Below the pieces are notes generated by a model that saw only the letters and a program-made list of their open reading frames with translations, made no database searches and was not told where the DNA came from. DNA of 64,000 nucleotides, from the NCBI GenBank assembly GCA_017993055.1, contig JAGONM010000012.1, positions 1-64,000 on the forward strand, given 5' to 3'. This document shows positions 39,277 through 40,388 of this stretch, in pieces; the first letter of the stretch is position 1; the number at the start of each line of letters is the position of its first letter. This DNA comes from Armatimonadota bacterium (lineage in GTDB: Bacteria > Armatimonadota > UBA5829 > DTJY01). The translations under genes were made by a program, and so were the position numbers.

Positions 39277-39305
39277 TTGACGGTCAACCTGATCTGGGTT
39301 ATACT
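39277..39305 (+). promoter_or_regulatory. Promoter for the CDF exporter transcript
   Basis: TTGACG (39277-39282), a 17-base spacer and TATACT (39300-39305). The expected start, near 39312, coincides with the beginning of the riboswitch core. Confidence 0.7.
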
Positions 39306-39311
39306 ACGCCC

Positions 39312-39397
39312 GGAACAGGCGGCTCCGGGAATGTCGGGGCGCGGCTGGGCCCGAGTCTTAGCCTCGGGCAGCAGGAGAATACAAGCCCTGCGGGACT
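39312..39397 (+). ncRNA. NiCo (cobalt/nickel) riboswitch aptamer
   Basis: The conserved single-strand blocks of the czcD/NiCo family appear in order. ACAGGC (39315-39320) is followed by a stem GCTCCG/CGGGGC (39322-39327 with 39335-39340), then GCGGCTGGGC (39341-39350). Next comes a stem CCGAG/CTCGG (39351-39355 with 39363-39367), GGCAGCAG (39367-39374), a stem CAGG/CCTG (39372-39375 with 39387-39390) and CGGGACT (39391-39397). I recall the same order in the crystallised Erysipelotrichaceae RNA. The outer P1 stem seems short or missing. The last helix and GGGAC block overlap the terminator stem, so metal binding should turn the gene on. Confidence 0.85.
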
Positions 39398-39421
39398 GCT
39401 AGAGTCCCGCAGGGCTTCTTT
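39383..39421 (+). terminator. Riboswitch-controlled intrinsic terminator
   Basis: A perfect 15-bp stem AAGCCCTGCGGGACT (39383-39397) with AGTCCCGCAGGGCTT (39403-39417), 5-base loop, followed by CTTT. It shares its 5' arm with the aptamer and ends 17 bases before the exporter start codon. Confidence 0.85.
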
Positions 39422-39437
39422 GATTGTGTGGGTGAGC

Positions 39438-40388
39438 ATGGACCAGCAACGACGCAAAACCGGCGTGGCGCTGCTCTCGGTGGCCTCCAATACCACTCTG
39501 GTGCTGCTGAAAGTAGCGGTAGGGCTATTCACCGGGTCGGTTTCGATCATCTCGGAGGGCATACACTCGGGGGTCGATCTGCTCGCGGCGCTGATCGCAT
39601 GGTTCGCGGTAAAGACATCGGGCCAGCCCGCTGATGAGGACCATCCTTTCGGGCACGGCAAGTATGAGAACATCTCCGGCACCGTCGAGGCGCTTCTGAT
39701 CTTTGTCGCCGCCGGGTGGATCGTCTACGAGGCGGTCAAGAAGCTTCTGCATCCCGAGCCTCTGCAGCATGTGGCACTCGGCACCGCGGTGATGCTCGTC
39801 TCGGCGGTGGTCAACATCATCGTCTCTCAGAGGCTCTTCAAGATCGGCAGGGAGACCGACTCCGTCGCACTGCAGGCGGATGCATGGCACCTGCGCACGG
39901 ATGTCTACACATCGGCCGGCGTAATGGTCGGATTGACCTTGCTCTGGCTGAACGACATCATCGCGCCTCAGGTGAACCTCCATTGGATCGACCCGGTTGC
40001 CGCGATTGCGGTGGCGGTCCTGATCGTGAGGGCCGCCTATCACCTGACCGTTCAATCCGCGCGCGATCTCCTCGATGTCAGCCTGCCCGCAGACGAGGAA
40101 CGACAGATTCGCGAGCACGTGATGGTCTGGACGCCTGTCGTCAGAGGTTTTCACCGCCTCCGAACCAGGAAATCCGGGGCGCACCGGTTCATCCAGTTCC
40201 ACCTGCTGGTGGACGGAAGCATGTCGGTAGATGAGTCTCATCGAGTGCACGACGAGATCGTGGCCTCGATCAAGGAGCACTACCCGGACAGCACCGCGAT
40301 CATCCACATGGAGCCCTGCACCAGGCCGTGCCCTGACAAATGCCTGCCCGACTGCCTCCTTAGTGAGGATGAGCGCATCCGCCTCTAG
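39438..40388 (+). CDS. CDF (CzcD-like) Co/Ni efflux transporter
   Basis: 316 residues, ATG 39438 after GGGTGAGC. Typical CDF layout: helices starting VALLSVASNTTLVLLKVAVG, then the metal-site strings SEGIHSGVDLLAALIAW (His/Asp of TM2) and LQADAWHLRTDVYTSAGV (Asp/His of TM5). The PFGHGKYENISG loop and a cytoplasmic C-terminal domain (HRFIQFHLLVDGSMSVDESH) follow. The tail CTRPCPDKCLPDC has four cysteines spaced C-x3-C-x3-C-x3-C, a likely extra metal site. Control by a NiCo riboswitch indicates Co2+ and Ni2+ as main exported ions. Confidence 0.92.
   Translation: MDQQRRKTGVALLSVASNTTLVLLKVAVGLFTGSVSIISEGIHSGVDLLAALIAWFAVKTSGQPADEDHPFGHGKYENISGTVEALLIFVAAGWIVYEAVKKLLHPEPLQHVALGTAVMLVSAVVNIIVSQRLFKIGRETDSVALQADAWHLRTDVYTSAGVMVGLTLLWLNDIIAPQVNLHWIDPVAAIAVAVLIVRAAYHLTVQSARDLLDVSLPADEERQIREHVMVWTPVVRGFHRLRTRKSGAHRFIQFHLLVDGSMSVDESHRVHDEIVASIKEHYPDSTAIIHMEPCTRPCPDKCLPDCLLSEDERIRL

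Follow-up and report, generated by a model that had tools for sequence, protein, structure and literature searches.

The window, i.e., the whole 64-kb stretch of Armatimonadota DNA that was analysed, contains a gene for a CDF cation exporter (P0001), which is preceded on the same strand by a sigma-70-type promoter, a NiCo (czcD) riboswitch aptamer and an intrinsic terminator (Table 1). A preliminary description made from the sequence had read this leader as a NiCo riboswitch controlling a CDF exporter, and this reading is supported by the covariance-model match as well as by the fitting anatomy and gene partner. The locus is ordinary: it adds one more member to an established riboswitch class, and its partner gene is likewise of a familiar type.

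Table 1. Features of the NiCo-CDF locus (positions in the window).
Feature	Position	Strand	Basis
Sigma-70-type promoter, TTGACG-N17-TATACT	39277-39305	+	10/12 match
Promoter boxes: TTGACG, 17-nt spacer, TATACT	39277-39282; 39300-39305	+	
NiCo (czcD) riboswitch aptamer, RF02683	39301-39400	+	49.6 bits, E 2.8e-8, model 1-96 of 96
P1, 5' side, short; pairs with 39396-39398	39311-39313	+	model alignment
ACAGGC block	39315-39320	+	read directly
P2 hairpin, small internal bulges	39316-39347	+	model and MFE
GCGGCTGGGC block	39341-39350	+	read directly
P3 hairpin, 7 bp	39349-39369	+	model and MFE
GGCAGCAG block	39367-39374	+	read directly
P4 hairpin; 3' strand (39386-39391) inside terminator 5' arm	39371-39391	+	model and MFE
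Intrinsic terminator, perfect 15-bp stem, loop of 5, then CTTTGATT	39383-39417	+	-31.6 kcal/mol
CGGGACT block	39391-39397	+	read directly
CDF cation exporter gene, Cation_efflux and ZT_dimer, stop included	39438-40388	+	domain matches
C-x3-C-x3-C-x3-C codons (P0001 residues 298-310)	40317-40355	+	

The covariance-model search, which the preliminary description had proposed as a check, gave a significant NiCo match that exceeds the gathering score of 37, and the four ordered conserved blocks and three helices described there were all found in place. NiCo is the sole Rfam family above its cut-off in the whole 64-kb window, and no second NiCo match was found in the 3.7-Mb source genome. Both G-rich junction strands can be read from the sequence (GGGC at 39347-39350 and GGGAC at 39392-39396); the conserved G's of the class serve as metal-ion ligands (PMC7689651). 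P1 consists of the pairs 39311-39398 (C-G), 39312-39397 (G-U) and 39313-39396 (G-C), plus a closing pair 39316-39394. The unconstrained MFE structure of the isolated aptamer contains P2, P3 and P4, and the fold of 39310-39425 has a z-score of -4.7, with none of 200 shuffled sequences folding equally well. The leader is thereby confirmed as a NiCo riboswitch and is a well-formed example of its class: it shares with RF02683 the full-length match, the metal-site G's, the four-way junction, the overlapping terminator and a heavy-metal exporter downstream, and differs in nothing essential; many relatives likewise have a short P1 with a predicted transcript start at its base. No report of NiCo riboswitches in Armatimonadota was found among the papers searched.

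Three elements of the aptamer lie within the 5' arm of the terminator (39383-39397), namely the 3' strand of P4, the GGGAC strand of the metal site and some of the 3' side of P1. Aptamer and terminator are hence mutually exclusive; the perfect terminator stem sharing the 3' part of the aptamer had been recognized correctly in the preliminary description. When the folding of the growing transcript was predicted by an equilibrium, not a kinetic, calculation, the aptamer hairpins persisted until about 39411 and the terminator had formed by 39414. The arrangement corresponds to the published ON-switch design of NiCo riboswitches, in which a terminator forms without metal and Co(II) or Ni(II) leads to read-through (PMC7689651). 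By analogy with this design, we infer that in a leader reaching about 39414 the terminator would out-compete P4 and P1 in the absence of metal, thereby stopping transcription. A rise in cytosolic Co2+ or Ni2+, perhaps also Fe2+, would let the ions form bridges between the conserved G's at the four-way junction; the metal-bound junction would hold P4 and the GGGAC strand, thereby blocking the 5' arm of the terminator and permitting production of the pump. It is very unlikely that this switch has been lost, leaving either a relic leader that folds without responding or a terminator that always or never works due to a weak T-run. The T-run (CTTTGATT) is indeed imperfect, and the computed energy of the terminator state is far below that of the aptamer state (-65.4 versus -40.5 kcal/mol); however, any ON riboswitch built in this way favours the terminator at equilibrium, the metal-site blocks, the helices and the full model are all intact, and complementary terminator arms next to the aptamer recur in the leaders of relatives, as judged by eye. 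With a probability of roughly 90%, the promoter, the NiCo switch with its overlapping terminator and the CDF pump form a self-contained metal-resistance cassette, in which metal would relieve termination.

Promoter sites of the quality found here occur on average 0.1 times in shuffled sequence. Seven nucleotides beyond the -10 box lies position 39312, the base of P1, and transcription is predicted to start at about 39311-39313. The preliminary description had placed the transcript start at the first aptamer base, with P1 short or absent, which agrees with this prediction, and had implied that this is special to the locus, which was not borne out. Indeed, a promoter with at least 9 of 12 matches is located within approximately 90 nt upstream in 26 of 34 NiCo loci, and in 17 of these 26 a distance of 9-14 nt separates the end of the -10 box from CAGGC. 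A start at P1 therefore appears to be common among NiCo loci, and a placement unique to this locus is ruled out.

The exporter matches PF01545 and PF16916 with 180 and 80 bits, respectively, and TIGR01297 with 243 bits (cut-off 82). The ATG at 39438, which has no clear-cut ribosome-binding site, is the probable start codon; it was chosen by comparison with relatives, whose alignments begin at residues 2-11 of the frame when this is read from 39426. The putative transport site HxxxD/HxxxD (H47, D51, H155 and D159) is invariant in 96 of 96 aligned sequences, and E44, H47, D51, H155, D159, H243 and H294 are kept in all or nearly all relatives. An AlphaFold model (mean pLDDT 82.7) comprises six long helices and a ferredoxin-like C-terminal domain. 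The best PDB matches are FieF/YiiP, with which the exporter shares the Cation_efflux and ZT_dimer domains and cytosolic His and acidic residues (H243, H294 and E296). It differs from FieF/YiiP in its transport site, which reads HxxxD in TM2 (HxxxD/HxxxD versus DxxxD/HxxxD in FieF), and in an extra tail with three further cysteines past the shared EPC/DPC. The protein scores below every NCBIfam equivalog cut-off, including those for FieF (196 versus 420-447), MntE (193 versus 500) and DmeF (63 versus 250). No second CDF was found in the source genome. The pump would export a divalent cation via its HxxxD/HxxxD site.

The cognate metal of the NiCo class is disputed; Fe(II) and Zn(II) also bind in vitro (PMC7689651). 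It is somewhat unlikely, but possible, that the same RNA and switch respond to Fe(II) or to a mixture of divalent metals instead of Ni/Co, and that this is also the cargo of the pump. The review of Xu and Cotruvo (2020) describes binding of Ni, Zn, Co and Fe by the Eba czcD riboswitch at 61-400 nM as well as its response to several metals in E. coli, and a Listeria NiCo switch located upstream of a PfeT-like ATPase (PMC7689651). Pointing in the same direction, NiCo riboswitches of Armatimonadota also precede P-type ATPases and, at two loci, a Rieske-type iron-sulfur protein, and the nearest solved relatives of the pump, FieF/YiiP, have names that refer to ferrous iron, zinc and cadmium. However, the transport site of the exporter is HxxxD/HxxxD and not the DxxxD/HxxxD of FieF, and the original in vivo data from Clostridium favoured Co and Ni (PMC7689651).

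The C-x3-C-x3-C-x3-C end of the exporter, to which the preliminary description had drawn attention, was found and is modelled with moderate confidence (AlphaFold pLDDT 67-69). When 84,980 species genomes were scanned with six search peptides, 80 close relatives were recovered; as the peptide AIIHMEPC includes the first tail cysteine, this residue is biased in the scan, while the other three are unbiased. The exporter belongs to a clade of bacterial and archaeal proteins sharing a four-cysteine tail, and the switch is absent from the majority of them. Of the clade members, 65 of the 70 lacking NiCo and 12 of the 16 carrying it have four or more tail cysteines, compared with none of nine NiCo-linked CDFs outside the clade. 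The tail thus marks a CDF clade and not the riboswitch, which rules out that it is specific to NiCo-controlled pumps, and it is worth noting as a property of this pump clade. According to the preliminary description, standard CzcD proteins lack such a tail; in agreement with this, solved FieF/YiiP-type and CzrB matches stop at or before the first tail cysteine, and the CDF matches among solved bacterial structures end at or just after Cys298. The suggestion that the tail is an oddity of this locus did not hold, since it occurs clade-wide and independently of the riboswitch. A Listeria plasmid CDF (H4) was rejected as a tailed relative because its annotated CDS ends at locus position 1267, whereas the alignment runs to 1312, so that the apparent tail match falls beyond the stop. 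The tail also matched quinolinate synthase (E 0.003) and ribosomal L35 weakly, and both matches were attributed to chance.

By analogy with human vesicular ZnT8, whose C-terminal cysteines bind Zn and Ni (PMC8000985), the four cysteines are likely to form a metal-thiolate site, which would probably be cytosolic and act in metal sensing or capture. In both proteins, the cysteines follow the same C-terminal domain (PMC8000985); however, their spacing differs, and the tails are compared by analogy, not as homologues. A redox-sensitive or purely structural role of the tail is rather doubtful. It would suit the differing spacing among members (the exact x3-x3-x3 pattern is present in 49 of 86, and Methanothrix proteins mostly carry a C-x-C ... 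C-x-C tail instead) and the few clade members without a tail (L027, L029 and L105). Against it, the number of four cysteines is kept despite varying spacing and residues, as expected of metal ligands, most non-cysteine tail residues being more variable than the cysteines, and the ZnT8 cysteines beyond the same domain bind Zn and Ni. Prokaryotic plasma-membrane CDFs were said to be devoid of such C-terminal cysteines (PMC8000985). The chances are about even that the tail marks an undescribed CDF clade of bacteria and Methanothrix archaea with a conserved, ZnT-like cytosolic metal-thiolate site; if true, this would contradict the published absence.

NiCo riboswitches are present in 33 of 291 Armatimonadota genomes, where they are mostly located upstream of CDFs. 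In the tailed clade, NiCo-linked members are found in Armatimonadota, Methylomirabilota, Lentisphaerota, Actinomycetota and Planctomycetota. The NiCo label requires 13 changes on a quick tree, compared with 22.4 for shuffled labels, indicating that its distribution is patchy but clustered. Each of the five genomes of the source family has one match to the exporter. The CDFs of the four family relatives are tailless and 45-51% identical to P0001, which itself belongs to the tailed clade, and no conserved neighbourhood is shared with them except for the CDF. Since these CDFs are tailless and lie in other gene settings, promoter, switch and CDF look like a cassette. Aptamer and pump distances correlate across 25 loci (Mantel r 0.56, p 0.0002), and the aptamer described here is most similar to that of the tailed-clade locus L028 (0.77, compared with 0.56-0.64 for the family relatives). 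Both observations suit a history in which promoter, switch and pump were passed on together, by transfer or inheritance; vertical descent combined with differential loss is a possible alternative. The value of the locus is comparative: one bacterial family has tailed and tailless CDFs, both NiCo-controlled, which provides a clean natural contrast for testing the role of the cysteine tail and the metal handled. Pump relatives with up to 66% identity and a C-x-C ... C-x-C tail are encoded at Methanothrix/Methanosaeta loci (L031, L034-L036, L040 and others), and these relatives of a bacterial pump suggest gene exchange between the domains.

Other gene partners of NiCo riboswitches were also observed in the survey. 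At the Armatimonadota loci L009, L012, L025 and L030, the aptamer is followed by P-type ATPase genes and not by a CDF, with a small membrane protein encoded in between at L009. L013 and L015 carry NiCo upstream of a long CDF of more than 410 amino acids (cut by the locus end) with seemingly repeated extra C-terminal domains. In two genomes of the Armatimonadota family f10, the aptamers of L020 (1501-1597) and L022 (1501-1608) precede a gene for a Rieske-type protein with an acidic, His-rich C-terminus; at L022, the Rieske assignment was confirmed by Pfam and a P-type ATPase gene comes next. These iron-sulfur partners bear on the disputed metal identity of the NiCo class.
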